From NCBI GenBank assembly GCA_003697135.1, contig RFGC01000012.1:1-64000 (forward strand): a DNA stretch of 64,000 nt, in the 5' to 3' direction. Positions 10,849-51,788 of this stretch are shown one piece after another; the first letter of the stretch is position 1, and every line of letters starts with the position of its first letter. This stretch comes from Acidobacteriota bacterium. Lineage in GTDB: Bacteria > Acidobacteriota > Blastocatellia > Pyrinomonadales > Pyrinomonadaceae. The notes below the pieces were generated by a model. That model was given only the letters and a program-made list of their open reading frames with translations, was not told the origin of the DNA and did not search any database. Made by a program: the position numbers and the translations under genes.

Positions 10849-11529
10849 ATGGCAAGGGATCGAAACAAGAAAGCAGCGGCTTTTTATGACTTAGAAGGGA
10901 CTCTGATTCGGACAAATCTTGTTCACACGCTTGCTTTCTACTCTTTGCGCCAGCAAGGACTTTGGCAAACGCTGAAAAAAGGAACTGAAACTTTGATAAA
11001 GCTGCCAGCTTTTGGTTTGGTTGATCTTTACTCGCGAAATGTTTTCAACGAGTTTTTTTTCCGAAGCTACAAAGGTCAATCTTACGACAGGCTTCGTTAT
11101 TTTGCGGATGAGCTTTTTGAAAAGGTTCTAAAGCCTGCGGTTTATCCGGGAGCACGTGACCTGATTCAGAAATCGAAAAAAATCGGGCTTAGGCAAGTCG
11201 TGCTTACAGGCGCACTTGATTTTACGATAGAGAAACTAATGGAGTATCTGGAAATTGATGATTACAAAGCAAATCGGCTGGAATTTGTCAATGGCTATGC
11301 TACTGGAAGGGTTTTGCCACCCGTAATGGCTTCTGCTACGAAAGCAAAATGGATAAGAGAATACGCCGAAAGAGAAGGCATCAATCTTTCGGAATCTTAC
11401 GCTTACTCTGATTCGATTTCTGATCTACCGATGCTCTCGATAGTTGGGCATCCTGTAGCTGTTAATCCTGATTTCCGACTAAGACAAACAGCTTTACAGC
11501 ACGATTGGCCAATTCTTGATCTGAGATGA
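10849..11529 (+). CDS. HAD-superfamily hydrolase, subfamily IB (SerB/PlsC-associated type)
   Basis: The protein is a phosphatase of the HAD-IB group. Motif I is YDLEGTLIRT at residue 15: the nucleophile Asp is kept, but the usual second Asp of DxD is Glu. Motif II is VLTGALDF (Thr where Ser/Thr is expected), then a downstream Lys (SATKAKWI), and motif IV is YSDSISDLPML near residue 185. An ATG in frame upstream at 10807 is also possible. It begins an operon with a LarA-like gene (9 bp away), a membrane protein and an ElbD-like enzyme. That context suggests it dephosphorylates a lipid-pathway intermediate. Confidence 0.85.
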   Translation: MARDRNKKAAAFYDLEGTLIRTNLVHTLAFYSLRQQGLWQTLKKGTETLIKLPAFGLVDLYSRNVFNEFFFRSYKGQSYDRLRYFADELFEKVLKPAVYPGARDLIQKSKKIGLRQVVLTGALDFTIEKLMEYLEIDDYKANRLEFVNGYATGRVLPPVMASATKAKWIREYAEREGINLSESYAYSDSISDLPMLSIVGHPVAVNPDFRLRQTALQHDWPILDLR

Positions 11530-11538
11530 AAACAGACT

Positions 11539-13140
11539 ATGGCACTGAACTTACGTAGAAAAACTCACGAATCAATAGTTTACATTGATAAAGACAGCGC
11601 GCCTCGCATCATTCCATTCGGCGAAGACTTTATTTTGGAACATCTCCCGATAGGCACGCGTGTAATTTATCCAAATCCACCAATCAAAGGCTTACCCAAT
11701 CGAGAAGCGGCAATCCGATATGCAATAAATCATCCGATTGATGCCGATCCGCTTTACGCTCAACTTAGACCCGGAATGAAAGTCACGATAGCGATGGATG
11801 ACATTTCTCTTCCGCTCCCGCCGATGGCAACGCCAGACCTTCGGCAAACAATGCTTGAAGTGGTTTTGGATATTTGCGCCGCAAACGGAGTTGATGACAT
11901 TCACCTTGTAATAGCAAACTCGCTTCACCGCAAAATGACAGAGTGGGAAATGCGTCGAATGGTCGGAAAAAAGATTTTCGACGCCTTTTATCCCGACAGA
12001 TACTACAACCACGATGCAGAAGATGACGAAAATCTCGTAACACTCGGCTATACAAAACACGGCGAGCCTTTGAGAATAAACCGCCGATGTGCTGAAAGCG
12101 ATTTGCTGATTTACTTGAATATCAACTTAGTGCCGATGGACGGTGGGCATAAGTCGGTAGCAGTTGGTTTGTGCGATTATGAATCGCTCCGCGCGCATCA
12201 CGAACCCCAAACGATCCGCGATTCAAATTCATACATGGACCCCGAACGCTCGGAGCTGAATCACAAAATCGCTCGCTTGGGCAAGTTGGTTGATGAAAAC
12301 TTAAAGGTTTTTCATATTGAAACAGCACTAAACAATCGAATGTTTCCCGAAGGCTATGACATCTTAACCAGAAATGAAGATGAATTCAGCCTTTCTGATA
12401 GGCTGAAGTGGGAAGCCGTGAAAAGAACTTTTTCACGACTGCCGAGAATTGCGCGGCGAAAACTACTTCACCAAATACCTGCGCAATATGAAATGATTGC
12501 CTGCTACGCAGGAGCAACAGAGCCAGTGCATCAAAAAATACTTGAAAAAAACTTCCAGCAATATGAAATCCCTGTAAAAGGTCAGTGCGACATACTGATA
12601 ACGGGAATTCCCGACATTTCACCTTATAACGTTTATTCTGCTTTGAATCCGCTTCTGGTGCAGGTGATGGCACTCGGCTACCATTTCAACATGTATCGCA
12701 ACAAGCCCCTTATCAAAAAAGGCGGCGTTTTGATAATCACGCATCCATGCTTTGATGAATTCGATCACAATTTTCATCCTTCATATATTGAGTTTTTCCA
12801 TCGTTTGTTACCTGAATCGCGTGACGCTTTTTACTTAAGGGAGAAATACGAACGTGAATTTGCTGAAAACCCTGCATATATCGAGATGTATAGGCGCGGA
12901 AACGCTTACCACGGTGCTCATCCGTTTTTCATGTGGTATTGGGGCGAAAACGGACGTCAACACGTAGGGCGCGTCATAGTCGCTGGAGCTGAAAATGCCC
13001 ATGTTCCGGAAATTCTAGGCTGGGAACGCGCTGATAATTTGACCGAAGCGATTGCTATGGCACGTTCATACATGGGCAAGAACGCTGAAATCACAATGTT
13101 ACATCAACCGATGATTGGAATTTGTAATGTTAGCGATTGA
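11539..13140 (+). CDS. LarA-like (DUF2088) nickel-pincer-type racemase family protein
   Basis: The 533-residue protein carries the lactate-racemase N-terminal domain. [17 protein letters not shown] is near residue 80 and [20 protein letters not shown] near 135, with His as in LarA. An HNHD-like His follows near residue 155. GGHKSVAVG near residue 200 contains the Lys that in LarA carries the pyridinium-thioamide nickel cofactor. The C-terminal half is longer than in LarA and divergent. LarA homologues isomerise 2-hydroxy acids; the substrate here is unknown. It sits between a HAD phosphatase and a reductase-acyltransferase enzyme, so a role on a hydroxylated lipid precursor is inferred. Confidence 0.8.
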
Positions 13141-13155
13141 AGAGCAAAGCTTTTT

Positions 13156-13566
13156 ATGAAATTTTTCTTCAACAACATAGAACTTATTTTAAGCGGCGTC
13201 GGAATAGTCGTAATAATTGCTGTGCCGATGCTTTTCTTTTCGGGATCTAATGTTTGGCACGCGGCGGCTATTACAGCCACCATCGTTGGGACGCTACACG
13301 GATTGATTTTCTGGGTTGTCAGAAAACGGCAACGACAAGTAAGAGAAGAAACAATAACTGAAATAAGAAGAATGCTGGAAGAAGTGACCAACAATCAACT
13401 TACTGTCATAATGCTGAGCGTATCGGATACGGCAAAACCAAAGCTAGAAGAACTGCAAACTGCAGTATCAAAGATTTCGACTTTGGTAAACACTCTTTCT
13501 GAAGAATCTTTGCGATCTTGGAAAGCCAGATACGAGCGGGTTCTTCAGAGCTTGGAGAAGAAATAG
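13156..13566 (+). CDS. Small two-helix membrane protein with cytoplasmic coiled coil
   Basis: The 136-residue protein has two membrane spans (about residues 11-30 and 35-56), then a basic RKRQRQVR anchor and an amphipathic helical tail rich in Glu, Lys and Leu that probably forms a coiled coil. I recognise no family. It lies 15 bp after the LarA-like gene and ends 4 bp before the GTG start of the large lipid enzyme, so it is almost certainly co-translated with them. A role in holding the soluble enzymes at the membrane is a reasonable guess only. Confidence 0.7.
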   Translation: MKFFFNNIELILSGVGIVVIIAVPMLFFSGSNVWHAAAITATIVGTLHGLIFWVVRKRQRQVREETITEIRRMLEEVTNNQLTVIMLSVSDTAKPKLEELQTAVSKISTLVNTLSEESLRSWKARYERVLQSLEKK

Positions 13567-13570
13567 TTTT

Positions 13571-16500
13571 GTGAGCCAGAAACTCGTAAAACAAAGGCTT
13601 ATGAAGTTGTCGCCTACGGAAATTTTCAGAGGCAAAAATATACTTCTCATTGGCGGAACTGGATTCGTTGGGAAAGTAACTTTTTCAATGCTTTTGCACA
13701 ACTTTCCTGATATTGGCAAAGTCTATGCGACTGTGCGCGCTCGCAACGCAGCCGAGTCGAGAAACCGTTTCTGGACAAGCATAGTCACAAGCCCGCCTTT
13801 CGATCCTCTCAGAGAAAAATTCGGCGCAGACTTTGAAGATTTTATTCGAGAAAAGGTCGTTCCGATAAATGGCGATGTGGGCGAAGAATTCTTGGGGCTT
13901 TCGGAAGACGAAGCTCGTGAGATAATGGCAAACTGCGATGTCATAATCAATGCGGCAGGTAACGTTACATTCAACCCGCCGCTTGAAAGTGCGTTGAGAA
14001 CCAATGTTGTTGGCTCGAACAATATAATTCAAATAGCACGCATGATGCGCCGCCCGTGTCTCGTTCATGTTTCAACCTGTTTTGTTGCAGGAAAGCGAAG
14101 CGGAACGGTTTGGGAAAATGAACCTGTAATCGGCTATTTTCCACGAAAGAACGAACTTATCGGCACTACTTTTGACGTGAACAAGGAAATCGAAGATTGT
14201 GCGCGTCTTTCAGAGCAGGCTCGTCAGGAAGCCGACGATGCAATGCAAATAGCCAAATTCCGTGAAGCCGCTCGCAAACGCTTTGAAGAAGAAGGCAGAG
14301 ACCCTGACGACGAAGCCGAACTCAAATCCGCCATCTTCCGAGAGCGCAAAATGTGGATTCGCGAGCGCACAACCGAACTCGGATCACAAAGAGCCGACTA
14401 CTGGGGCTGGACAAACATTTACACTTATTCAAAATCGCTTGCTGAACAAATAATTGCCCAACAAAATGATATTGTTAAAGTACTGGTTCGTCCGAGCATT
14501 GTTGAATCCGCAGTAGAATATCCTTTTCCGGGCTGGAATGAAGGCTTCACAACTACAGCTCCGCTTATTTTTATCGCACTTCGCGGTCAGCCTCTGATTC
14601 CGGTTAATGAAAAATTGGTTCTGGACATAATTCCAGTTGACATGGTCGCAGGCGTCATACTCGCGGCAGCAGCGAAAGCGCTTGTTGACGATAACCCACC
14701 GCTTGTTTTTCAAGCCTCTTCAGGTGACTCAAACCCAATCGACATGAAGCGCATCGTGGAATTGCTTGGGCTTTATAAACGCGAATACTACAAGGAAAAG
14801 CAAACGGGTAATAAACTTCTCAACAAACTCGCCGCAAACATCGAAGCACTGCCGGTTTCGCAAGAAACTTATGAAAGATTCTCCGCGCCGATGCTCAATA
14901 AACTTGCGAAAAAAGCAAGCGAACTTTTGGACGAAGCAAAACCGAAATGGGCAGGCGGAAGATTCTCCGATATTATTTCAAACCTGAAAAAATCCGTCGA
15001 AGAATTTGAACAATCAACCAGAGAAACGATTGATGCCTTTGCGCTTTTCAAGCCTTTCATGATTGACAACGAATACGAGTTTCGCGCTGATAATGTCAGG
15101 GAGCTAATGGCATCAATCGCAGATGAAGAAAAACATCTTTTGCCTTGGTATCCGGAGAAAATTGATTGGTTTGAATACTGGCTCAAGATTCATTTTCCGG
15201 GCGTTAGAAAATGGGTCTTGCCAACTCTAGAAGAAGAACTCAAAAAGCCAGAAAAGCGAGTTTACACCTACAAAGACTTGTGCGACTTATTCGACACTGC
15301 AACCAAGCGCTTTGCAACGCGCGTTTCAATGAAGATCGAACGCAACGGACGCAAAGAGCAATATACCTACGAAGACATTAGGGAGCTTGCCTTGAGAGCG
15401 GCAGGATTTCTAGCATCTCAAGGGATAAAACAAGGCGATAAGGTGGTGCTTTGCTCACACAACATGCCTGAATGGGGAATAACGTATTTTGGCATCATCA
15501 AAGCCGGTGCTACTGCTGTTCCAATCGATCCTTCAAGCTCCTCTTCGGAAATAGCCAACTTCGCACAATTAAGCGATGCCTCTGCAATAATTGTCTCCCA
15601 AAAAGTTGCTGATGATAACTTGGATTTAGCAGAAAAGCTCAGGGAATCAAATTTGGAAATTCCTGTGTGGACGTTTGAAGAAGTTTACGAACTTGTCTCC
15701 GAAGAAGAAGAGCAAAGAAGAATAGAACTTCTGCCAAAGAAAATTCTGGCAAATTCTATAGCTTCTCTGATTTTTACTTCGGGCACGACGGGCAACCCGA
15801 AAGCTGTTATGCTTTCACATAAAAACTTCGTCAACATGGTTTCGATGCTTTCTAGCGTTCTTGAAATGGGAATCAACGATGGCGTGCTTTCGGTTTTGCC
15901 TCTGCATCACACTTTTGAATTCTCTGCGGGATTTTTAACGCCTTTCTCAAACGGAACTCAGATAACATACCTTGAAGAACTTTCGGCAGAAGAACTTGCG
16001 CGTGCAATCGAAAGTGGACACATAACCGGAATGATTGGTGTTCCTGCGCTCTGGGAAATGCTACACAGAAGAATAAAAACACGGCTTAGAGAGCGCGGAG
16101 ATTGGCTTGCGGATATTGCTGATAACATTATCGAATTCAACGCATGGCTACGAGACAATACGCCCTTCAATCTCGGTCCCATTCTCTTCTTCCCGATTCA
16201 TCAAGGCATGGGCGGGCGAATGAGATATTTAATCTCAGGCGGTTCGGCTCTTTCGGAAAAAGTCCAAAGAGAGCTACATGGGCTTGGATTCAACATTCTG
16301 CAAGGCTATGGACTAACGGAATCTTCGCCGGTTCTAACGGTTGCGCGTCCGAGTAACAGGTTGATAACGGGAAGCGTCGGGAAACCTCTTCCCGGTGTTG
16401 AAATCAAGATTGACGATCCAGATGAAAACGGCATCGGCGAAATACTTGCACGCGGGCAAAATGTAATGCTCGGATATTACAAAAACGAAGAAGCGACTCG

Positions 16501-18022
16501 AAACGTTTTGCAAGACCGATGGCTCAGAACTGGCGATTTAGGAAAGATTGACGAAGACGGAAATCTCTACATAGTCGGACGCGCAAAAGACGTAATCATA
16601 GACTCAAACGGAAAGAACATCTACCCGGACGAGATTGAAGAAATCTATGGCAAATCTCCATACATAAAAGAACTATCGGTTGTAGGTCTGCCAGATGAAG
16701 ACGGCGGAGAGAAAGTTGCGGCTTTGGTCGTGCCGAATTACGAATATGACACATCGCTTTCTAGAGCTGAGATAAACCGAAAAGTCGAAGAGCATTTCAG
16801 AGAAGTTTCTGCCTCACTTCCGTTTTTCAAGAGAATTAAGGTTCTGCACTTAACACCCTTTGAACTTCCGCGCACGGCTACAAGAAAAGTCAAACGCCAA
16901 GAAGTGGTTAAGATTCTCCAGCGAATGGAAGCCAAAGAAAAGAAACTTGCGAAACTCAAAACTGAAACAAACGGTGATGAAACCGGTCTGTGGCTGAGAA
17001 AGATAGTTGCAAGTGTATCTAACCGCTCGCTGTCGGAAGTTCATTTCAATAGCAAACTTGTTGATCTGGGATTTGATAGCTTAATGTTTGTAGAATTACA
17101 AGCGGCTATTGAAGATGCAGGCGGACGCGTCTTACAACCCGATAAGCTAAATGAAGTTCAAACCCTTTCGGAACTTCTCTCAATAGTCGAAAGAGTTAAC
17201 AAAACAAAGAAAATCGCCGATGAAGTCGTAATGGAAGAAAAGAAAACGGATGAAGATATTAAACTTCCGTGGATAATCCGACGAATTGGCAGTTCAATGA
17301 TTGATCTTGCGCAAACGATGCTTTACGACGGTATTTTGGAAACTGTTATTGAAGGACAAAGCAACGTGCCTGTTCATACGAACTTCATAGTTGCACCCAA
17401 TCATGCATCTCATCTCGACACAGGGCTTGTTAAAAAGGCTTTAGGAAAGGAAGTTGCTGAGCAAACAGTTGCAGTAGCGGCGGCCGATTACTGGTTTGAT
17501 ACGAAACTAAAACGCGCCTACATGACCAACTTCACGACTCTCGTTCCAATCGAACGAAGCGGAAACTTACGCCAGTCGCTTCGCCATGTTACCCGCATTC
17601 TCAACGAAGGTTACAACGCTTTGATATTCCCTGAAGGAACAAGATCACTAACAGGCCAAATCAACGAATTCAAGCCGATAATCGGATATTTGGCTCTCAA
17701 CTGCAAAGTCGGAATTTTACCGGTTTATATCTGGGGAACATACGAAGCTTATCCGAAAGGAATGGTTATACCGAAAAGAGAAAGTTTCGGCGCAACGGTA
17801 GGCGCTAAAATAGGGCGTTTTCTCGAATACGATGAGCTTTCTGAAATGGTCAAAGGTATTCCAAAAACAGAAGCTTATCGTCTGATAGCTGCGCGCGTTC
17901 AACATGAAGTCGAAAACTTACGCGACGGCACAAAAACTCCCTTCGATATCGAAGCAACTCGCCAACGCTGGCAAGCCGAAAAACGAAAAGCACGACGTAA
18001 AGAACCAATAATTGACGAATAG
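13571..18022 (+). CDS. ElbD-like multidomain fatty-acyl reductase / AMP-ligase / ACP / acyltransferase
   Basis: The 1483-residue protein has four enzymatic parts. First is an NAD-binding reductase of the thioester/fatty-acyl-CoA reductase type (GGTGFVG at residue 27, Tyr284-x3-Lys288). A helical linker follows. Then comes an AMP-forming acyl ligase (FTSGTTGNPKAVMLSHKN near 735, LRTGDLG near 985, catalytic-Lys region near 1100). Next is an acyl carrier protein with DLGFDSLM, Ser1170 being the phosphopantetheine site. Last is a PlsC acyltransferase (NHASHLD at 1277, FPEGTRS at 1353). It can in principle activate a fatty acid, load it on ACP, reduce it to alcohol or aldehyde and acylate a glycerol backbone. 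This closely resembles the myxobacterial ether-lipid enzyme ElbD. The start is GTG. Confidence 0.9.
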   Translation: MSQKLVKQRLMKLSPTEIFRGKNILLIGGTGFVGKVTFSMLLHNFPDIGKVYATVRARNAAESRNRFWTSIVTSPPFDPLREKFGADFEDFIREKVVPINGDVGEEFLGLSEDEAREIMANCDVIINAAGNVTFNPPLESALRTNVVGSNNIIQIARMMRRPCLVHVSTCFVAGKRSGTVWENEPVIGYFPRKNELIGTTFDVNKEIEDCARLSEQARQEADDAMQIAKFREAARKRFEEEGRDPDDEAELKSAIFRERKMWIRERTTELGSQRADYWGWTNIYTYSKSLAEQIIAQQNDIVKVLVRPSIVESAVEYPFPGWNEGFTTTAPLIFIALRGQPLIPVNEKLVLDIIPVDMVAGVILAAAAKALVDDNPPLVFQASSGDSNPIDMKRIVELLGLYKREYYKEKQTGNKLLNKLAANIEALPVSQETYERFSAPMLNKLAKKASELLDEAKPKWAGGRFSDIISNLKKSVEEFEQSTRETIDAFALFKPFMIDNEYEFRADNVRELMASIADEEKHLLPWYPEKIDWFEYWLKIHFPGVRKWVLPTLEEELKKPEKRVYTYKDLCDLFDTATKRFATRVSMKIERNGRKEQYTYEDIRELALRAAGFLASQGIKQGDKVVLCSHNMPEWGITYFGIIKAGATAVPIDPSSSSSEIANFAQLSDASAIIVSQKVADDNLDLAEKLRESNLEIPVWTFEEVYELVSEEEEQRRIELLPKKILANSIASLIFTSGTTGNPKAVMLSHKNFVNMVSMLSSVLEMGINDGVLSVLPLHHTFEFSAGFLTPFSNGTQITYLEELSAEELARAIESGHITGMIGVPALWEMLHRRIKTRLRERGDWLADIADNIIEFNAWLRDNTPFNLGPILFFPIHQGMGGRMRYLISGGSALSEKVQRELHGLGFNILQGYGLTESSPVLTVARPSNRLITGSVGKPLPGVEIKIDDPDENGIGEILARGQNVMLGYYKNEEATRNVLQDRWLRTGDLGKIDEDGNLYIVGRAKDVIIDSNGKNIYPDEIEEIYGKSPYIKELSVVGLPDEDGGEKVAALVVPNYEYDTSLSRAEINRKVEEHFREVSASLPFFKRIKVLHLTPFELPRTATRKVKRQEVVKILQRMEAKEKKLAKLKTETNGDETGLWLRKIVASVSNRSLSEVHFNSKLVDLGFDSLMFVELQAAIEDAGGRVLQPDKLNEVQTLSELLSIVERVNKTKKIADEVVMEEKKTDEDIKLPWIIRRIGSSMIDLAQTMLYDGILETVIEGQSNVPVHTNFIVAPNHASHLDTGLVKKALGKEVAEQTVAVAAADYWFDTKLKRAYMTNFTTLVPIERSGNLRQSLRHVTRILNEGYNALIFPEGTRSLTGQINEFKPIIGYLALNCKVGILPVYIWGTYEAYPKGMVIPKRESFGATVGAKIGRFLEYDELSEMVKGIPKTEAYRLIAARVQHEVENLRDGTKTPFDIEATRQRWQAEKRKARRKEPIIDE

Positions 18023-39977: not shown

Positions 39978-40001
39978 AAACACTTGACGAAAACTTAAAT
40001 T
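39973..40001 (+). promoter_or_regulatory. Promoter of tRNA-Gln
   Basis: TTGACA at 39973-39978 and TAAATT at 39996-40001 are separated by 17 bases, close to the sigma-70 ideal. The tRNA begins 16 bases after the -10 box. Confidence 0.6.
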
Positions 40002-40016
40002 ATTTTTTTCGGGGCT

Positions 40017-40090
40017 TGGGAGATCGTCTAATGGTAGGACGCTTGACTCTGGCTCAAGAAATCGGGGTTCGAGTCCCTGTCTCCCAGCCA
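40017..40090 (+). tRNA. tRNA-Gln (anticodon CUG)
   Basis: The 74-base sequence folds as a full cloverleaf. The acceptor TGGGAGA pairs with TCTCCCA. The D arm has the AATGGTA loop. The anticodon stem CTTGA/TCAAG holds loop CTCTGGC with anticodon CTG. The T arm carries GTTCGAGT. The 3' CCA is encoded. A U1-A72 end pair is a known identity element of bacterial tRNA-Gln. Confidence 0.95.
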
Positions 40091-40097
40091 ATTCAAT

Positions 40098-40131
40098 AAG
40101 CCGACAAAAAACGAAGTCGGCTTGTTTTTTT
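40098..40131 (+). terminator. Intrinsic terminator of tRNA-Gln
   Basis: AAGCCGAC (40098-40105) pairs with GTCGGCTT (40116-40123), followed by a run of seven T. It lies just after the tRNA CCA. Confidence 0.85.
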
Positions 40132-40260
40132 AGATTTTGCTTGGTTTCTTAATGCTTGCGTTGCGAAGCGCCCCGAACTTCAGGTTTCTTTAGATTTTAC
40201 TTTGTGTTTGTTAGGTTTTTTCTTGTGTGTTCAGATTCAAAGAGTTTTACGCATACAAAG

Positions 40261-40701
40261 ATGGAATGGCATGAAACAAAAATCCGCGTTCGATATGCGG
40301 AGACCGATAGAATGGGAATTGTTCATCATTCAAACTATCCGATTTGGTTTGAGATAGGCCGCACCGAATACTGTCGGGCGCAAGGATTTTCTTACAGAGA
40401 AATGGAAGAGAAAGACGATGCACTTTTGGTGGTTACTGAACTTTATTGTCGCTACAAAGCTCCCGCATTTTATGAAGATGAAATCACGATTCGCACGAAA
40501 ATAGGCGAAATCCGGAGCCGCTCAGTGAAGTTCATTTACCAAATCTTCCGAGAATCGGACAACACTGTTCTTGCCGAAGGCGAAACAATCCACGTTGTAA
40601 CAGACTCAAACCAAAAGGTCAAAACCTTGCCTGAAATCTACAAAAAAATGCTTGCGCTAGAACAAAATCCCCAACTTCAAGAAATACAAAAAACTAAATA
40701 G
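40261..40701 (+). CDS. Acyl-CoA thioesterase, YbgC/4HBT hotdog family
   Basis: The 146-residue hotdog-fold protein has the catalytic YAETDRMGIVHHSNYPIWFE at residue 9, where the Asp and Met-Gly-x-Val-His pattern is diagnostic, and a central ALLVVTELYCRYKAPAFYED strand. Family members hydrolyse short- to medium-chain acyl-CoA or act with the Tol-Pal system. The frame extends upstream to 40156, but the ATG at 40261 opens the conserved fold. It is the last host-like gene before the GC-rich island. Confidence 0.9.
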   Translation: MEWHETKIRVRYAETDRMGIVHHSNYPIWFEIGRTEYCRAQGFSYREMEEKDDALLVVTELYCRYKAPAFYEDEITIRTKIGEIRSRSVKFIYQIFRESDNTVLAEGETIHVVTDSNQKVKTLPEIYKKMLALEQNPQLQEIQKTK

Positions 40702-40936
40702 TTACCACCCATAAAGCTTTTCATGAGACCCACAACTTTGCCATTTCCTCGTAGCGCAGATTCTCTTCAAGAACCGAGTTTTAGCTCGAGATCACCGTTA
40801 ACTACGTTAACAATTTGAATTTCAAATCAACTCATCAGTTTTTTGTGAGACTGCAAGTTATAATTAGCTGTTAATGATCTGGATGGTTATGAACTGCCCA
40901 AGCCTCCGAGAGAATCTCTGCCTGCTCGATTTCCTC

Positions 40937-43405
40937 TTATGGTTTTATAGGTGCTGACGTGCGTTTAGTCAGGGCAGACTGGATCGTCTGGAAAAAGGCT
41001 ACATCATCTCGAATGCACAGAGCCTTTTCATGGGGGATGGCGAGCGCAAAGGCTTTGGAAAGGGCACGCACTGCCTGGAGGAATCACTGTTTGCCATTTT
41101 CTTGGGCGAAGAGATGCTCTGCCACTGCAAGCAGAAGGACGAGCCGCTCTTGGGGCGTGCCGTTCCTCCACTTTGATCAATCAAACCCGTGGAAAAGCTC
41201 ACAGCATACCTCGTACTTTTCCTGCATTATGGCGATTGCTTCGTCCTGTTCAATTACAGCATGCCCAGTGCCGCCACTTTCGGTGCACGTGGCCAATGCA
41301 GATTTCAGTCCACGGGCAAGGTCTAAGTAATCTACCACCGGCCTGCCGGGCTTATCACGAAAGACGCGGTTGACGCGGGCGATGGCTTGCATGAGCCCGT
41401 GGCCACGCATCGGCTTGTCCAGGCACATCGTGTGCAGGCTTGGACAGTCGAACCCCACAAGCCACATATCACGGACGATCACGATCTTGAAAGGATCGGC
41501 GGGGTCACGAAAGCTGCGTGCCAGAAATTCCCGCCGCTGCTTGTTCCGGATGTGGGGTTGCCACTCCGGCGGATCGGACGCCGAGCCGGTCATGACGATT
41601 TTGATCATACCCTTGTCGTCGTCCTTGTGGTGCCACTCGGGACGCAGCCGCACGATCTCCCGGTAAAGGTTCACGCAGATGCGCCGGCTCATGCACACAA
41701 TCATGGCCTTCCCATCCAGCGCCTCGAGCCGCCGCTCGAAGTGCGTCACGATGTCCTGGGCAACAAGGCGCAAACGCTTCTCTGTGCCGACGATGGCTTC
41801 AAGCTGTGCCCACTTCGCTTTCAGCTTCTCCTTACGTTCGACCTCTTCGCCTTCGGTGACCTCCTCAAATTCCTCATCAATTTTCGGCTTGAGCTCCTCG
41901 GGCAGGTCGAGCTTGGCCAGGCGGCTTTCGTAATAAATCGGCACGGTGGCGCCATCCTCCACGGCCCGCTGGATATCGTAAATGCTGATATAATCCCCAA
42001 AGACGGCGCGCGTGCTGGCGTCAGCCCGCTCAATGGGCGTACCGGTGAAACCGATGAAGGACGCATTCGGCAAGGCATCGCGTAGATGGCGAGCAAAGCC
42101 ATCGATGAAGTCATACTGGCTGCGGTGCGCCTCATCGGCGATGACGACGATGTTATGGCGCTCGGAAAGGATCGGGTGCCGGTCGCCTTTCTCCTCCGGC
42201 AAGAACTTCTGAATGGTGGTAAAAATTACCCCGCCTGCCTTCACCGATAAGAGATCGCGCAGGTGAGCGCGACTCTCGGCTTGTACAGGCGGCTGACGCA
42301 GGAGATCCTGGCACCGCGAGAAGGTGCTAAAAAGCTGGTCGTCGAGATCATTCCGATCGGTTAGCACCACAATCGTGGGGTTTTGCATGGCCGGCTCGCG
42401 AATGATGCGGCCGGCATAAAACAGCATCGTTAGGCTTTTGCCAGAGCCTTGGGTGTGCCAGATGACACCGATTCGTCCATCACCGGGCTGCCCCCTGAGT
42501 CGGCGCCCACTCTTGCCAACGACTGGAGCCGCAGCAGTCGATCTAGCTGCCCGCAGCGTCTCTTGAACGGCCACCTGCACAGCGTGAAACTGGTGATAGC
42601 CAGCCATCTTCTTGACTACCCGCCCGCTTGCATCCTCTTCAAAGATGATAAAGTCGCGCACTAAGTCGAGAAAACGCTTTTTATCGAATACGCCCTTTAG
42701 TAGCACCTCAAGCTGAGAAATACTCACATCCTCGACCTGCTCGCCGGAGATGGTCCGCCAGGGCTTAAACCATTCCCGACCGGCACCGAGGGAGCCGATA
42801 CGAGCCTCCACGCCATCGGAGATAACTAGGGCTTCGTTGGTGGCAAAAAGGGAGGGGATCTCGGCTTGATAGGTCTGAAGCTGCTGCCACGCCGTCCAGA
42901 TCGTGGCGTCCTCGTCGGCGGCGTTTTTGAGCTCGATGACTGCGAGCGGCAGACCGTTGACGAAGAGTACGATGTCTGGCCGGCGGGTGTGGCGATTTTC
43001 GGTGACGGTGAATTGACTGACGGCTAGCCAGTCGTTGTTGGTGGGCGTGTCGAAGTCGATGATCCGCGCTTGGGCGCCTCGGATTCGGCCGGTAGTATCA
43101 CGGTACTCTACGGTCACGCCGTCCACCAGGAGGCGGTGCAGGGTTCGGTTGCGCTGGATGAGGTCAGCGCCATCGGGCCGGGTGAGCTTGCGGAAGGCGT
43201 CTTCCTGCGCTTCGGCAGGAAGGTCAGGATTGAGAAGCGCTAGGGCATCCCGAAGACGCCGGGTTAGCACCACCTCGCGGTAGTCCTGCCGCTCAGCAAA
43301 GGGCCCGTCTGGGGCGATATCTGGCCCGTGCTTGATCACCCAGCCCAGGGATTCCAGCCAGGCGAGAGCGGCGGATTCGACGGTGGATTCACACAAGCTG
43401 CTCAT
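40937..43405 (-). pseudogene. hsdR: Type I restriction enzyme R subunit, broken
   Basis: The motor-nuclease subunit keeps its N-terminal nuclease domain, with [19 protein letters not shown] at about residue 140, and the SF2 translocase: [12 protein letters not shown] (Walker A), [10 protein letters not shown] and FTGTPIE. A TGA at 41177-41179 interrupts ...ELFHGFD after 742 residues. The same frame continues with [21 protein letters not shown], then a second TGA at 41084-41086, then [22 protein letters not shown], and ends at 40937. Full-length HsdR proteins are near 1000 residues, so the C-terminus is also cut off. The start at 43405 overlaps the stop of the upstream OLD gene (ATGA). Confidence 0.9.
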
Positions 43406-45150
43406 CGCGTCTGCGTTGATTCCCCTCCTTCCATGGGGTTGGGAGCTACATCCGATGCCAAGCACGCCTCCACCAATTTGCAAAAGTCATCAAGTTTTCC
43501 CTGTTCTATTTGCCCCGTTTCGTACAAGTAAAGTGTGTGTTGCGGCTTTTGGTGACTTGCCACTGATGGCAGACCCAACATTTTGTCCAGTTCGCCCGGA
43601 ATCTGCTTAATCGCCAATGTCCAGCACGGGTCTTTCGAGTCCTCGATGAGCTTATTAATCTCGGCGTGCTCACCCTTGTCGTCATCATTATCGTGAAGCA
43701 CTGAATGAGATATTCCCATGCGACCGAGTAGATTCATGAACCGGTGTATGTTGTATTTTCCGATGCAATCCATCACGTAAAGGCCAGAACGGGCGTTGCC
43801 GATCTTTCCATCGCTAATAAGTTTGTTGATCAGCGCTACCTCTGTTGGCCCCTCGACCAAGAGCACATGGTCAGCGAAAAAGGCACTCGCACGATCTGGG
43901 TTGAGCCAAATGAAGTACTTAACAGCCTCCATGTCTGGCTTGGCATCGTCCTGTTGCATCCTCTTAGCCATTCCGGGGTACTTTTCCGCGATCTTGTTTA
44001 TTTGTTGGTTGGCATGAATTATAGATTCCCACTCGGAGTCGCCGATCTGGAATGCCTTGACCTCTCCGTTCGAGCGCCTCATGCGAATGATAGCCGGAAT
44101 ATCAGTCGCATTCCTACTCACGAAATGGGCCGAGTGAGTCGTACATATAACCTGCCAACTCTCTGCGGCCGCCAAATCCCTAAGGCTCCTCGCCAGTTCT
44201 TCTTGTTGAGGAGGATGCAAATAGGCTTCGGGCTCCTCAAACAGAATCAGGGTCAGCTCTGGTCTGAAGTCCTTGGCCTTTTTTGCCCGCCTCCTACCAC
44301 CGTATTGGGCACTCAAACGGATAAGCGAGTAGATAAAATATCTTTGAAAGCCGGAGCCATAGAGATCAATGTCTAGAGATCTGTTATGTATTCGGTCAAT
44401 GAGATTCCACCTCATTAAAGACTTAATGATGTCGCCCGGCTGCGGAGGCGGTACTTCCAGCTTGAAGTCTATCTGCCACGGTTTTAGAAACTCATTGATT
44501 TTGCTCTCGAAATCAGCCAGCGAGCGACCGTCAGCCGTCTTTTCGCCGCGCACAGAGCCCGAGAACTTCTGAACAGCGGCGCTAAAGTCCTTGTAAGCCT
44601 CTCCACCTTGCACCACGTCGCTCATAATTTCGTTCAAAAGGTCACGGAGGGCAGACGGTCCGCTGAGCTTGGCATGCTCATTTACCTCGCTTATCGCCGG
44701 GATGTAAACTAGGTCGCCCACTTTACCGCTCTGAACGTTCTTGGCACCGTAGAATGGTTCATTATTGAGTGAACCATCAGCCTTGTAACCAAATATGAAG
44801 CCGGCTGCGGATTTGCCGTCAGCTATCCTGGTGTCTGTTTTAAAGTACTTCCGCAATCGAAGTTCTTTTGACGAAGACTGTTTGTACACTTCTGCCAACG
44901 AGTCATACTCGTCGTCCGATAGGGAGAATGTTAGTTCCACCCACGAATCTTTATCTTGAGTAACACCGCAGGGGAAGTCACTCTCCGGTTGGAACTTAAA
45001 ACCATCCTTCTCATAAAACGCGCGGATGGCGTCGATAACCGTACTCTTACCGGAGTTGTTGGGTCCAACAAGCAGGCTGTAGTCACTCAAGCTAATCTCT
45101 TGGTCGAGTATTCCTCGGAAGTTGTGGATATGAACCTTCTTCAACTTCAT
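43402..45150 (-). CDS. OLD-family ATPase/TOPRIM endonuclease, first copy
   Basis: The 582-residue protein has an ABC-type ATPase with Walker [10 protein letters not shown] near residue 29 and Walker [15 protein letters not shown] near 300. A C-terminal TOPRIM domain follows with [11 protein letters not shown] near 420 and SVLHDNDDD near 475. This is the OLD (overcoming lysogenisation defect) nuclease layout, known in anti-phage defence. No UvrD-like helicase (GajB) follows, so it is not a standard Gabija pair. AAGGAG lies 8 bases before the ATG at 45150, inside the hsdS-tail repeat. The frame extends to 45339 but the fold starts here ([13 protein letters not shown]). Confidence 0.9.
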
Positions 45151-45380
45151 AATCTCTTCTCCTTCAAAAACCGTTCCGCCTCCTTCACCCGTATCTCCCC
45201 GCGGATGAGCTTGGGCAAAAGCGCCTCGCGCAGGCGTTGCGCGAGGACAACTTCGCTGTAATCCGCCAGCTCGGCAACGGGCGTGTCCGGCGTGCTCTCC
45301 GAGCTGTGCTTGACCGCCCAGCTCAGGTCCTCCAGCCAAGCGAGGGCAGCGGATTCGACTTCAAATTCCGTAAACTGCAT
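45147..45380 (-). other. Chimeric relic ORF: hsdR N-terminus joined to hsdS C-terminal tail
   Basis: The first 50 residues ([20 protein letters not shown], then ADYSEVVLAQRLREAL) match the start of HsdR at 43405 in pattern but with many differences. The remainder ([20 protein letters not shown]) matches the HsdS C-terminus at 47040. The junction is at the shared L-R-x-A-L. The stop TGA overlaps the ATG of the OLD gene at 45150. It is a recombination product and could act as a short translational leader; an ATG at 45404 is also in frame. Confidence 0.85.
45158..45234 (-). repeat. hsdS-tail direct repeat, copy 2
   Basis: This 77-base stretch matches 47054-47130 at about 71 of 77 positions. It encodes the last HsdS residues and includes the AAGGAG that serves as ribosome binding site for the following OLD gene. 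Confidence 0.9.
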
Positions 45381-45390
45381 AGGCACAACC

Positions 45391-47039
45391 TTAAGATCCT
45401 CCATCCATGCACAAGCTCTTCACCGCGTCTACGAGCGGCTGAAGTTTGGCGGGTATTTTGTCTAGGTTCACACCTTCCAATTTCTCAGCGATCTTCCTCG
45501 GCTTATCAGATGCATCCCGAGTAATGCCGAGCGCAGCTTCAAGACTGGGTTTCATGACGTGTACTGCGCCACTCTTCTCGACAGCCTCTTCGATACGTTT
45601 GTTTTTCTTTACCTCTACCTGGTTTTCCTTCTCCTGCTTTTTCCGCTTCTCGGCATCCATGATACTGATAGTCGGCCACACATCTTCATCGTGGAGAACA
45701 ACGAACGGAATGTCAAGCGCCCGACATACCCGCACGAACAGCACGATCCCGTCCTTCCCGCCGCAATCGACAACCGCCGCCCCTTCTGCGTCAAGATCAC
45801 AGCCTAATTTGTCTGCGATCATAAGCGCCGCTATCCGGTCACCGTACCCTTCGGTCAGCAGAGCCTTGCTCGCAAAAAGGATTTCGTTGCGTGCGGCATC
45901 AAACCGATTTCCAAGCTTGAAGTTGCTCCTTGCTTCCTCAAGCGCCGCCTGGTCCGTGTCTCGCACAAAAGCTACACTCGTCTTGCCTGCGACCCTACGC
46001 ACGAGCCGCAGTGCCTCAAACCGATTCACATCTGCGAAAATCGGCGAGTGAGTTGAATAAATTACCTGGCACTGCTTATTTTGAGCCATCTCGCACAGCA
46101 GGTGATAGAAGTAACGCTGCGCTTGAGGGTGAAGATACATCTCCGGTTCTTCAATCGCGACCGTTCCGAAATCTCCACCGAGCTGGCGGAAGGCCTCGAA
46201 GATCCCAACGACCATAGCACTTTGGATTCCTAGGCCCAGTTCGTCACCCGGAACGGTCAGGCCTGATTCCCGGTACTCTAGCCTGAACGAGTTGAAGGGG
46301 TTCGCGGGATCGGCGAATCCGAAAGCGATGTCCACGTCTTTGATGGCTGACCTTCCGAGGAATCCAAGCATTCGTTTCGTGGTGTCAGCAACGATTTCCT
46401 CAATCTGCTTTACTTGCTCTGTTCTCAGCGTCTCCATGGCGGCCTCGTACTTGCTCTTGAACTCATTGACTGCCGCGAACTCTTTGCGCGATTTCTGGAG
46501 TAGCCGACCCAAGATAGAACCCCGCACGGTAGGCAGATGCTGAGCCAGGCTTCGACGGTGGTCCACGTAGAGAATGCGGGCATGGTCGCGCAAGTCGGTA
46601 CCGACTCGCAACGGCGCGAATTGTGCCTTCTCGCCCTTTCTGGGTTGGGTGATTGCAACGTTGGGCACCTTTCCGTCTTCGTTGAGCGGCTCTAGGTCCA
46701 CGTGCAGATCGCCCGCCTCACCCCACTTGCCAGATTTCTTGTACTCCTTGCAGGTCAAACGCAGGGCTCTTACAACGTGCCGGTATGAGAGGCTGTCTAA
46801 ATGCTCGTAAGGTGGATCGAAAGAAACAGTGATCGCAATATCGCGGCTCGTATCGAACTCTCGGAAGTCTTGCGGAATACGGGAACTACGAAGGCTCGGC
46901 CATGCGTCGCCCAAGACCAGATCGATAGACCGAAGGATCGTCGTCTTGCCCGAGCCGTTGGGTCCCACAAAGGCAGTCAGCGGCCCCAAGGGAACGTCGA
47001 TATCTTCCAAGCAACGAAAATTCTTCACCTGAAGGCGCG

Positions 47040-47046
<7 letters not shown>
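45391..47046 (-). CDS. OLD-family ATPase/TOPRIM protein, second type
   Basis: The 551-residue protein starts [16 protein letters not shown], has Walker [10 protein letters not shown] at residue 29, an ABC-like signature region [12 protein letters not shown], and Walker [14 protein letters not shown] near 305. A TOPRIM-like part has [13 protein letters not shown] near 410 and [10 protein letters not shown] near 455. It differs widely from the OLD gene at 43402-45150, so the two are not a recent duplication. The ATG overlaps the hsdS stop by 7 bases, with AAGGAG 8 bases upstream. AAA-TOPRIM genes linked to type I loci are known defence components (rlo-like). Confidence 0.88.
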
Positions 47047-48357
<1,311 letters not shown>

Positions 48358-48368
<11 letters not shown>

Positions 48369-48711
48369 AGCCCATTTCCTCCAGTTTGTTCGAGAGCGCT
48401 TTCACCGCAGGCCTGGGCGCGGGGAGGTCCTTTTGCACCGCAGCCCAGACGATGTCCGTGTCAATCTCGAAGTAGCCATGCACCGGGATATTGCGCATCC
48501 CGATGATCTTGGACCAGGGAATGTCCGGCGCCGGGTTTCGGATGTCTTCTGGCAAAGCACGGGCGGCTTCGCCGATGATCTGGAGGTGCCGGAGACACCA
48601 TACCTGCAACATCTCGTCCTGCTCGAAAGCGGTCCTGTCGCGATCCCGGTACCGCTCGATGGCCGCCATGGCCTGGAAGATGTCCCGCAGTCGTTCCTTA
48701 GGATCTCTCAT
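48358..48711 (-). CDS. hepT: HepT-like HEPN ribonuclease toxin (DUF86)
   Basis: The 117-residue all-helical protein has RNIPVHGYF near residue 73, an exact R-x4-H-x-Y motif: the Arg and His form the RNase site and the Tyr is the residue AMPylated by MntA in the characterised pair. [19 protein letters not shown] near 42 is another family signature. It overlaps mntA by 4 bases and hsdS by 11. It is predicted to be an intact toxin held inactive by its partner. Confidence 0.92.
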
Positions 48712-48998
48712 ACCGGCACGGCTTCCCTGAGCACATGTTCGCGAATCCGGCTTTTGAGACCCCGCTCCGTCACGACGTCCACCCGTACTCCCAAGAGCTC
48801 CTCCAACTCGTACTGGAGCCCCCCGAGGTCAAAAAGGGTCCGGCCGGGCTCGAGTTCAACCAGAAAGTCCAGGTCGCTCTTCTCGTCTGCTTCGCCGCGG
48901 GCCACCGAACCAAACACCCGCACATTGTGCGCCCCATATTGGGCGCAGACACGCAGGATGTCTTCGCGCTTCTTGCGCAGAAGTTCGCTAAGCGTCAT
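48708..48998 (-). CDS. mntA: MntA-like nucleotidyltransferase antitoxin
   Basis: The 96-residue minimal nucleotidyltransferase has [20 protein letters not shown] near residue 30 (G-S-x10-D-x-D). MntA AMPylates HepT on tyrosine to neutralise it. The start I use is ATG 48998, which overlaps the hsdM stop by 11 bases; a TTG two codons earlier is possible. It lies immediately before hepT in the standard order. Confidence 0.92.
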
Positions 48999-49927
48999 AG
49001 CCAAGCGCCTTTAGATTCTTCCAAATGGCTTCGTCCAACCTCGCCGCCTCGGCCTGCTGCTCGCGCAGCTCGGCCACCAGGCGCGCCATCTTCTCCTCGA
49101 ACGGCTCGTCGTCCTGTTGCACCTCGGCGCCGACGTAGCGCCCCGGTGTGAGTACGTAGCCGTGCTTGCGCACCTCGTCCAGCGTGGTGCTTTTGCAGAA
49201 GCCGGGGACGTTCTGGTACGCGCCCGCCTCCTTCTCCCCGCGCCAGGCATGGTAGGTGCGGGCGATCCGCTGGATCTCTTCGTCCGTCAGCTCCCGGTGG
49301 ATGCGGTCCACCATTTTGCCCATCCGCCGGGCGTCGATGAAGAGGATTTCGCCGCGGCGATCCCGCAGAGGTTCCTTCCGACCGGTGGGAGGCCGACCGC
49401 TTTTATCACGCGCAAGGAACCAGAGACATGCGGGGATCTGGGTAGAGTAGAACAGCTTGTCCGGCAGTGCGACCATGCAGTCCACAAGGTCGGCTTCGAT
49501 GATGTTTTTGCGAATCTCGCCTTCTCCGGACTGATTGGAAGACATCGAGCCGTTGGCCAGAACGAAGCCGGCGTAGCCGGTGGGCGCGAGATGGTGGATG
49601 ATGTGTTGACCCCAGGCGAAATTGGCGTTACGCAAAGGCGGGACGCCAAACTTCCAGTCTTTCTGCAAGCACTCCCAACGGGCCTTAGGCGGCATCCAGA
49701 AAACATTCTGGCCACGGTATTCGTCCGGGTCTTCCAGGTCGGCGTACGACTCATGCTCCAGCCGCTTGCGGTGCTCCTCAAAGGCGTCGGAGATGTACTT
49801 GAGGAAGATCAGGGCCAGGACGACGTGCTTGTATCCGGCAGCATTCATGCTATCCCCCCAGGGCATCCGCCATGCACCACAGTTCTGCATCATAGCCCAC
49901 CGTGATCCCATTGGGTTGGTTCACCAT
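48988..49927 (-). pseudogene. hsdM: Type I DNA methyltransferase subunit, frameshifted and internally deleted
   Basis: The N-terminal frame starts at ATG 49927 ([17 protein letters not shown]) and shifts at a run of six G (49854-49859 as C). It then continues [22 protein letters not shown]. Near 49662 the protein jumps from ARWECLQ to KDWKFGVPP. The roughly 190 residues that normally lie between, with the SAM motif (DPxxGSGG) and catalytic NPPF, are missing. The rest ([43 protein letters not shown]) is well kept. The protein cannot methylate DNA. The longest open frame alone gives 307 residues. Confidence 0.9.
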
Positions 49928-50194
49928 CGTCTTTATGCTTTGCGGCATATCCCCTATGAACCGTAGAAAACTTTTGACTAATATCCGAATTGACTCCTCA
50001 CGCCCACAAAGTTAGCACCTCATATAGGACATGTCAAGTTCGCTTATCCAACTCATCTCTGTTTCATTCCAACCGTACCGATTCCAAACTGCTGCGGCTT
50101 TCTAGACCCCACAAAAGCCAATCACCTAAGTAGGAGTTGTCCTGTTTGGGATCCGGTTGTCCTTGCATCTGATTTGATGCTCATTCGTCACCGC

Positions 50195-50510
50195 CTAACT
50201 CGTTTTCCAACTTCGAGGCTGATAGAGCTTGCTTTCGATCTGAGGCACCAGCACCTTTCGGCTCCACCTATGCTCAAGGGTCTGTTGCACATCCCAGAGG
50301 CGCTCGGCGGGGTCTTTGACTTTCTCTAAGAGCACGACGTCATGAAACCAAGGAATTTGTGCAGTAGTTTGCTGCATAATTTGCTCGTCGGGCCAAGCTT
50401 CGGCAAATGCTCGCATGTATTTGAGATTGGGCGGCGAAAAGCCCTTCATGTCAGGAAATTCGCGCCGGAGGTCTTGCGCTAACCAGTCGAATACTTTTGC
50501 TTCCCAACCT
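50195..50510 (-). pseudogene. Fragment of DUF1016 (YhcG-type PD-(D/E)XK nuclease) gene
   Basis: The reading frame from about 50510 gives AKVFDWLAQDLRREFPDM, then GFSPPNLKYMRAFAEAW and DPAERLWDVQQTLEHRWSR. This is the N-terminal DUF1016 domain, which normally precedes a nuclease domain. Both ends are cut off: the C-terminus stops at ...IESKLYQPRSWKTS and the N-terminus abuts the amidase fragment. DUF1016 proteins often lie beside type I RM genes. Confidence 0.85.
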
Positions 50511-51007
50511 TACTGCTTCATCTCCGGTTTGAGCCGGTAACAAGTGACTGATGCAGCTGCGCCACCGCTGGACCCACCCGGCGTGCGATCGAGGTTCCAG
50601 GGATTGTTGCTGCGGCCAAAGATAGGATTGCTGGTTTGAACGTCAGAGAGTAAGACTGGCACATTCGTTTTACCAAGGATGATGGCACTGGCGGATTTGA
50701 GACGTGCGGTAATCGTGCCATCTTTAGGTGGAATATACTCTGCCAGCGGCTTGAACCCCGCAGTGGTCCGCATCTCTGCGACTGAATGCCCATCTTTAAG
50801 CGTCAGCGGCACCTCATGGAGCGGGTCCCATGTCTTACCCCGGGCGAGTGCGGCATCGGTGACCTGCGCCCGCTGACGGGCTCCTTCCGCGTCCAATGTG
50901 ACGATGGCATTCAGCACGGGATTGTGTTTGGCGATATGCGCGAGGTGCGCCTCCATTACTTCCGTTGCGGAGACTTGTTTCTTGCGAATGGCACCGGCAA
51001 GTGCCAT
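50510..51007 (-). pseudogene. Fragment of an amidase-signature enzyme
   Basis: The 165 residues have VPLTLKDGHSV (catalytic Lys) near residue 70, AIILGKTNVP near 105 and the catalytic Ser-cis-Ser region TPGGSSGGAAASV near 142. Then the frame diverges and stops, whereas full amidases have about 300 more residues. The frame is open upstream of the ATG at 51007 with amidase-like sequence (LKDIIFSTA), so the 5' end may also be missing. Non-functional. Confidence 0.88.
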
Positions 51008-51091
51008 TGCTGTCGAAAAGATGATGTCTTTTAGCGTCTCTCTCCTATGCTTTGTGCAAATATAGCCACGACACCTGTGGAGCGCTCAGTG

Positions 51092-51154
51092 GACCAATGC
51101 TCCGGTTCAGCGGCGGGCTGCAGACGGACCGTCCGCTGCAACCGGTTGTTGGAC
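51092..51154 (-). other. attC-like recombination hairpin
   Basis: On the minus strand GTCCAAC (R''-like) is followed by CCGGTT-g-CAGCGG-a-CGG, a spacer, and CCG-CCGCTG-AACCGG. These pair fully apart from two extrahelical bases on the left arm, the hallmark of integron attC sites. The right box is degenerate (ATTGGTC instead of GTTGGAC). It lies 36 bases after a methyltransferase gene end on the same strand, as in a gene cassette. No integrase is in the window. Confidence 0.55.
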
Positions 51155-51189
51155 AGCCGCCCGGCCTCTTCAACTCACCTCGGGAGGTG

Positions 51190-51291
51190 TTACTTCTTCG
51201 CCTCCAGGATCAAGTTGAAGGGAGTCTCCGTCGCACGGCGGAAGCGGCTGAAACCCGCTTCGGTGAATACGTTGCGCAAACGTGCTAGACA
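51190..51291 (-). pseudogene. C-terminal fragment of a SAM-dependent methyltransferase
   Basis: The frame encodes RLRNVFTEAGFSRFRRATET and then PFNLILEAKK followed by TAA, a typical closing strand pair of UbiE/Methyltransf_11-type enzymes. The upstream part is lost; the next gene (51303) begins in another frame right above it. Confidence 0.7.
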
Positions 51292-51302
51292 CGAGACGAC
51301 AA

Positions 51303-51668
51303 TCAAGCGGCGCGCAAGGCATTGTCACGGTCGAGCATACGTCCAGCAACAACCCCGACTGCCGCTCCCGGCCCACTGACGGCAAGGGCGGCGATCGATC
51401 CGAATCTTCCGTGCACGAGGATATTGAAAGCGATGACAGGAATGCCAACAGCGAGACCAACAAGCCATGCAAGTCGCAGCTTTAGTAGTGAGAGAAGGAA
51501 GGCACAGATGAAAAGAGAGCCAGCCGTAATATCGGTGTCATCCCAAGACGGTCGCGAGTCAACGTAACCAATCGCAACGCCTGCCGAAAATGCAACCAAA
51601 CCGATAGTAACATTGTTAGACCAATCCCGCACCTTGCTTTTCCAAGAAAGCAAAAATCCAAATAACAT
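51303..51668 (-). CDS. Small membrane protein of unknown function
   Basis: The 121-residue protein has about four hydrophobic spans and a small AGRMLDRDNALRAA tail. AGGCGG lies before the ATG. Its size, isolation, and position beside an attC-like site would fit an integron cassette or island passenger gene. No family is recognised. Confidence 0.6.
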   Translation of the reverse strand: MLFGFLLSWKSKVRDWSNNVTIGLVAFSAGVAIGYVDSRPSWDDTDITAGSLFICAFLLSLLKLRLAWLVGLAVGIPVIAFNILVHGRFGSIAALAVSGPGAAVGVVAGRMLDRDNALRAA

Positions 51669-51788
51669 CTAACCGCCTGCTCTTATCATAACCACCACAA
51701 ACAAGCAGTTGTTTAGAGTGTGCTTTCAGCGAAAGTAAATCGCCATGTTTCAGCAATACCTATCGCAAAAGGTCTGGGCACTTTCCAA

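Follow-up and report, generated by a model that had tools for sequence, protein, structure and literature searches.

A probable elb-type operon of Blastocatellia with a LarA homologue as putative member of the ether-lipid pathway

Analysis of a genome from the Blastocatellia (subdivision 4 of the Acidobacteriota) recovered a compact gene cluster, likely an elb-type operon that serves to make membrane lipids with alkyl ethers. A homologue of LarA encoded in it is predicted to participate in the pathway. This reading builds on domains, motifs, conservation, gene linkage and cofactor-site residues, from which we infer all chemical steps and the product. Our comparisons indicate as a new element that a homologue of the LarAH14/15/16 family (LarAH) is a recurrent partner of ElbD and of related fatty acyl reductases (FAR) in several phyla. 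Elb genes of subdivision-4 Acidobacteria were already published (Sinninghe Damste 2018, cited in PMC10087280), so that we claim no novelty for the operon itself.

The gene cluster and its multidomain protein

Four co-directional open reading frames on the plus strand occupy positions 10849-18022 of the window, the 64,000-nt stretch of DNA that was analysed, and with gaps of 9, 15 and 4 nt they form the tight cluster that had been proposed for this region. The first (10849..11529, +) encodes a HAD-IB phosphatase of 226 residues (Pfam PF12710, 118 bits; NCBIfam TIGR01490 above cut-off) that resembles ElbB. It is followed by the LarA homologue of 533 residues (11539..13140, +; Pfam Lar_N PF09861, 130 bits; NCBIfam NF052592), and two of the three neighbours assigned to the large enzyme in the original prediction are thus in place. 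Next comes a protein of 136 residues with N-terminal hydrophobic segments (13156..13566, +) and zero Pfam or NCBIfam matches, and finally the ElbD-type multidomain protein of 1483, probably 1473, residues (13571..18022, +), identified through Pfam, motifs and relatives.

The large protein comprises a FAR domain (NAD_binding_4, residues about 27-362), a FAR_C 'Sterile' segment (465-550), an AMP-ligase with AMP-binding and C-terminal domains (579-1106), an ACP (PP-binding, 1141-1203) and a PlsC acyltransferase (1260-1388). All pass their Pfam cut-offs except FAR_C, which reaches 34.6 bits against a cut-off of 35.4, and the motifs GGTGFVG, YTYSK, TSGTTG, LRTGDLG, NHASHLD, FPEGTR and ATRKVK are found intact. 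The domain search and the motifs thereby bear out the reductase, ligase, ACP and PlsC composition expected for this frame, and the ACP serine is correctly placed at residue 1170 in the 1483-residue numbering. The true start is probably the ATG at 13601, ten codons downstream of the GTG, because aligned relatives begin at MKLSPTE and AAAGG precedes this ATG; the protein would then have 1473 residues, with the ACP serine at 1160.

We also considered a polyketide-type reductase and rejected it. In a sequence search, the best match of the FAR domain was the fatty acyl-CoA reductase 7eoz (189 bits), while terminal reductases of PKS and NRPS systems scored 51 bits or less, the value for MxaA being 51 bits. 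Thus, the exclusive grouping with polyketide reductases that would have spoken against the original prediction is not what was observed, as judged by scores rather than by a tree.

A few further features deserve mention. A second ElbD clade (L059, L060 and L062), sharing about 30% identity with the host protein, shows a TGTAVDPKG-like sequence where the SGTTGxPK motif of the ligase would be expected, and the ligase there may therefore be altered. The host and five relatives share a DLEGT motif I in the HAD protein, with Glu replacing the second (general-acid) Asp, while nearly all other homologues in the motif survey have DVDGT or similar; the DLEGT form occurs in the family of the host and in one other. 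The small protein, predicted as an operon component, is indeed encoded in the cluster but is not a conserved part of it. Neighbourhood comparison retrieved a homologue in one genome of the same genus only, relatives having ankyrin or methyltransferase genes, or nothing, at this position, and we consequently discarded it as an operon partner. A scan for sigma-70 promoters and terminators yielded counts no higher than in shuffled sequence. Elsewhere in the window, positions 40000-52000 display a GC content of 53-56%, compared with about 42% in the surroundings, starting just after a tRNA (40017-40087). By eye, the frames of this segment read as HsdR, two OLD/RecF-like ATPases, HsdS and a short HsdM-like frame that may be missing its central part, and the segment is likely a foreign type I restriction island.

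Conservation of the operon and linkage of LarAH to lipid genes

About 22 of the 25 family genomes, the host's included, encode the large protein at 59-85% identity, and it is also carried by one further family (G291); in 15 sampled genomes from other families of the class, only parts of it were detected. Four relatives (L053, L065, L066 and L068) keep the order HAD-LarA-ElbD-epimerase, and the genus of the host has the same order minus the epimerase. Moreover, a lipid kinase (DAGK/YegS), an epimerase and a separate PlsC appear repeatedly in the neighbourhoods of relatives. BLAST located no ElbE-like epimerase beside the operon of the host or anywhere else in the 64,000 nt. Considering that the large protein recurs across the family and that purifying selection on the LarA gene is strong in a sister genus (see below), we regard a chance origin of the cluster as excluded by these comparisons of sequence.

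The same operon is found in another genome of the family (G022) that is likely a relative of Pyrinomonas, a name that we inferred. Pyrinomonas methylaliphatogenes is obligately aerobic, and more than 40% of its membrane lipid consists of iso-branched glycerol ethers and membrane-spanning lipids (PMC4644332). Other routes to such lipids were not recovered in the host. The domain DUF2229 (PF09989), which we take to be the marker of Ger/PlsA, is absent from the host and eight sampled family members, whereas the search did detect it in the positive control, Thermotoga maritima. Similarly, two FAD-oxidase_C (PF02913) matches in the host had no AGPS among their PDB matches; these proteins are D-lactate/glycolate-dehydrogenase-like, one by phmmer and the other as judged from its sequence. 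With neither DUF2229 nor AGPS found, ElbD is the only candidate for ether-bond formation that was detected in the host.

These data bear on the alternative that no ether bond is formed and that the large protein instead produces fatty alcohols, aldehydes, wax-type esters or some further reduced lipid. Such products would suit a FAR of the fatty-acyl reductase type, as suggested by 7eoz and by FAR_C falling just short of its threshold, and certain acidobacterial loci are arranged as HAD-LarA-FAR-epimerase-lipid kinase, with a FAR protein devoid of ligase and ACP. On the other hand, M. xanthus elbD mutants lose their ether lipids (PMC9131029), the probable Pyrinomonas relative points to an ether-lipid genus, and Ger and AGPS were not found in the host, so that we consider this alternative improbable.

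Returning to the ether-lipid reading, the surroundings of LarAH were assessed in a six-frame survey of FAR/ElbD loci. LarAH lies within 10 kb of FAR/ElbD in 19 of 80 loci from named genomes, which represent the best matches to the query rather than an even sample, include related genomes that are not independent, and contain none from Myxococcota. The adjacent pairs belong to Acidobacteriota, Gemmatimonadota, Chloroflexota/Dormibacterota and two poribacterial loci. All ten Chloroflexota/Dormibacterota loci exhibit a FAR-HAD fusion adjoining LarAH, with a separate PlsC in eight. The poribacterial ElbD loci mostly lack LarAH, and full-length LarAH is encoded elsewhere in each of the 14 such genomes checked. 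Overall, a full-length copy was identified in 23 of 27 ElbD/FAR genomes checked; LarAH is therefore not universal, as four are without it. A zinc dehydrogenase of the polyol/threonine type adjoins LarAH in Acidobacteriota, Gemmatimonadota, Chloroflexota, some Poribacteria and one planctomycete. The hint in the original prediction at a LarA-like partner is thus upheld by its recurrence next to FAR/ElbD across phyla. LarAH is probably an enzyme of the ether-lipid pathway, where it is a candidate for the step that creates the ether bond.

The LarA homologue and its cofactor

The LarA homologue scores 819.5 bits against the LarAH14/15/16 family model (NF052592; cut-off 740), while the divergent homologues L062, L226 and L230 remain below the threshold at 520-690. 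In the alignment, D87, H130, K205 and H220 are retained, equivalent to D72, H108, K184 and H200 of LarA, and these four do not vary among 21 homologues drawn from several phyla. There is no counterpart of H174, R75 or K298, and the stretch around H174 is shortened. Hence, from the set typical of two-histidine lactate racemases (H108, H174 and K298), the host protein keeps only the H108 equivalent.

Congruent with this pattern, single-histidine LarA enzymes are the nearest solved relatives by sequence as well as by fold. An AF2 model (pLDDT 91) superposes on 9q3k with a Z-score of 41.0 over 454 residues at 2.2 Å. The host protein resembles LarA-Sp and LarA-Bw (9q2u/9q3k and 9q3j; PMC12611868) in fold (Z 41.0 and 37.9), in cofactor-site residues and in the loss of the second catalytic histidine. 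It differs in that the histidine stretch is shortened rather than changed from His to Asn, in its identity of 24-26% in the structural alignment, and in its linkage to lipid genes. Groups without H174 and K298 may catalyse another hydride-mediated reaction (Desguin et al., PMC7583248), and in the same study assays of LarAH14 from Frankia detected no reaction.

Another possibility is that the LarA homologue isomerises hydroxy acids or sugar acids in the ordinary way and has no more than its place in the operon in common with the other genes. For its closest solved relatives (9q2u/9q3j), a tentative role in carbohydrate metabolism has been proposed from their genomic surroundings (PMC12611868), and the partner dehydrogenase of other phyla scores as polyol/threonine-dehydrogenase-like. 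Such a role fits poorly with the linkage to FAR, HAD and ElbD in several phyla, with the co-occurrence in genomes where the genes are unlinked, and with the missing second histidine, which is needed for inversion. We therefore judge an isomerase of this kind unlikely, though deserving of attention.

The cofactor presents a puzzle. LarB, LarC and LarE are encoded by the host, yet 10 of the 41 genomes of the sister genus (g9) lack both LarB and LarC (L155-L158, L182-L184, L186 and L187 among them), and LarE is also missing in the four of these that were checked. All ten retain LarAH at least in part, two displaying only interrupted or contig-edge pieces, and the cofactor status of LarAH is uncertain for this reason. 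The dN/dS of LarAH is 0.016-0.044 between larBC-less genomes, close to the 0.014-0.033 of LarBC-bearing pairs. It is conceivable that the LarA homologue has given up the nickel-pincer cofactor and serves as a scaffold or uses another cofactor, as the ten genomes keeping LarAH under such constraint would suggest. Arguing against this, the nucleotide-, Lys- and Ni-site residues that are invariant in the 21 sequences stay in the larBC-less genomes read, and a canonical two-histidine LarA paralogue persists in all five larBC-less genomes read. We accordingly grant a loss of cofactor little probability, an alternative cofactor supply being an equally possible explanation. The retention of canonical LarA in these genomes also weakens the notion, considered and set aside, that larB/larC loss signals NPN-independence of LarAH. 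Aggregated, the larBC-less genomes would have either an alternative cofactor supply or a cofactor-free role of these LarA proteins.

How, then, might an ether-lipid pathway operate? The AMP-ligase would load a fatty acid, possibly iso-branched, onto the ACP of the same protein, the FAR domain would reduce the ACP thioester to an alcohol or aldehyde, and the PlsC domain would acylate a glycerol acceptor, with the alkyl chain ending up ether-linked and the HAD-IB enzyme removing a phosphate. The nickel-pincer cofactor of the LarA homologue could transiently oxidise the acceptor carbon adjacent to the one receiving the alkyl chain, enabling an AGPS-like exchange, and then give the hydride back on the same face, with retention. 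Same-face hydride return suits an active site with one of the two catalytic histidines. The complete proposal, that a single-histidine LarA homologue with nickel-pincer cofactor enables aerobic, ElbD-type ether-bond formation by hidden retentive redox chemistry in place of AGPS, is speculative, and we hold it with low confidence. If true, a nickel-pincer enzyme would perform bond-forming lipid chemistry instead of racemisation. In broader terms, LarAH14/15/16 and, in other phyla, the polyol-type dehydrogenase offer a short list of genes for the ether-bond gap, and the linkage to lipid genes places in a biological setting a branch of LarA proteins with no reaction detected in the assays cited (PMC7583248). 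Furthermore, how the ElbD route forms ether bonds bears on the source of the branched ether lipids that are used as climate proxies.

Comparison with known ether-lipid systems

The AGPS (FAD) and Ger/PlsA (anaerobic ester reductase) routes share the proposed class of end product with the operon described here, and differ from it in that the host yielded no gene matching either of them. The elbD-like clusters of sponge Acidobacteriota and Poribacteria (PMC9426513) and the subdivision-4 elb operon (PMC10087280) have the same large protein in the same phylum; in the excerpts of these two sources, the clusters are flanked by hydrolases or dehydratases, and a LarA homologue is not described as a partner.

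A further close system is the M. xanthus elbA-elbE operon, where ElbD combines FAR, acyl-CoA synthetase, ACP and acyltransferase (Lorenzen et al. 2014, described in PMC9131029). The proposed equivalence to the myxobacterial domain set agrees with this description in content and order. Ligase and ACP activities have been demonstrated for M. xanthus ElbD, whereas fatty alcohol and acyltransferase activity were not seen in vitro, and even in this organism the route to the alkyl ether is described as unknown (PMC9131029). Pontiella has ElbD homologues, and its lipid analysis found no ethers (PMC11868695). The Pontiella result, the in vitro nulls of M. xanthus ElbD and the lack of an ElbE-like neighbour in the host all count against the ether reading.

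Unlike M. xanthus, which has an AGPS, the host yielded none, and its operon lacks an adjoining epimerase and contains an extra small membrane protein. In both, one protein unites FAR, ligase, ACP and acyltransferase in the same order, and a HAD-type ElbB belongs to the operon. The epimerase ElbE lies on the other side of elbD, as it does in several relatives of the host. A literature search (ElbC/DUF2088) returned no statement of ElbC as a LarA homologue. The LarA homologue of the host sits between HAD and ElbD, and in M. xanthus elbC adjoins elbD and has no assigned function; compared by description, ElbC could therefore be the same protein as LarAH.
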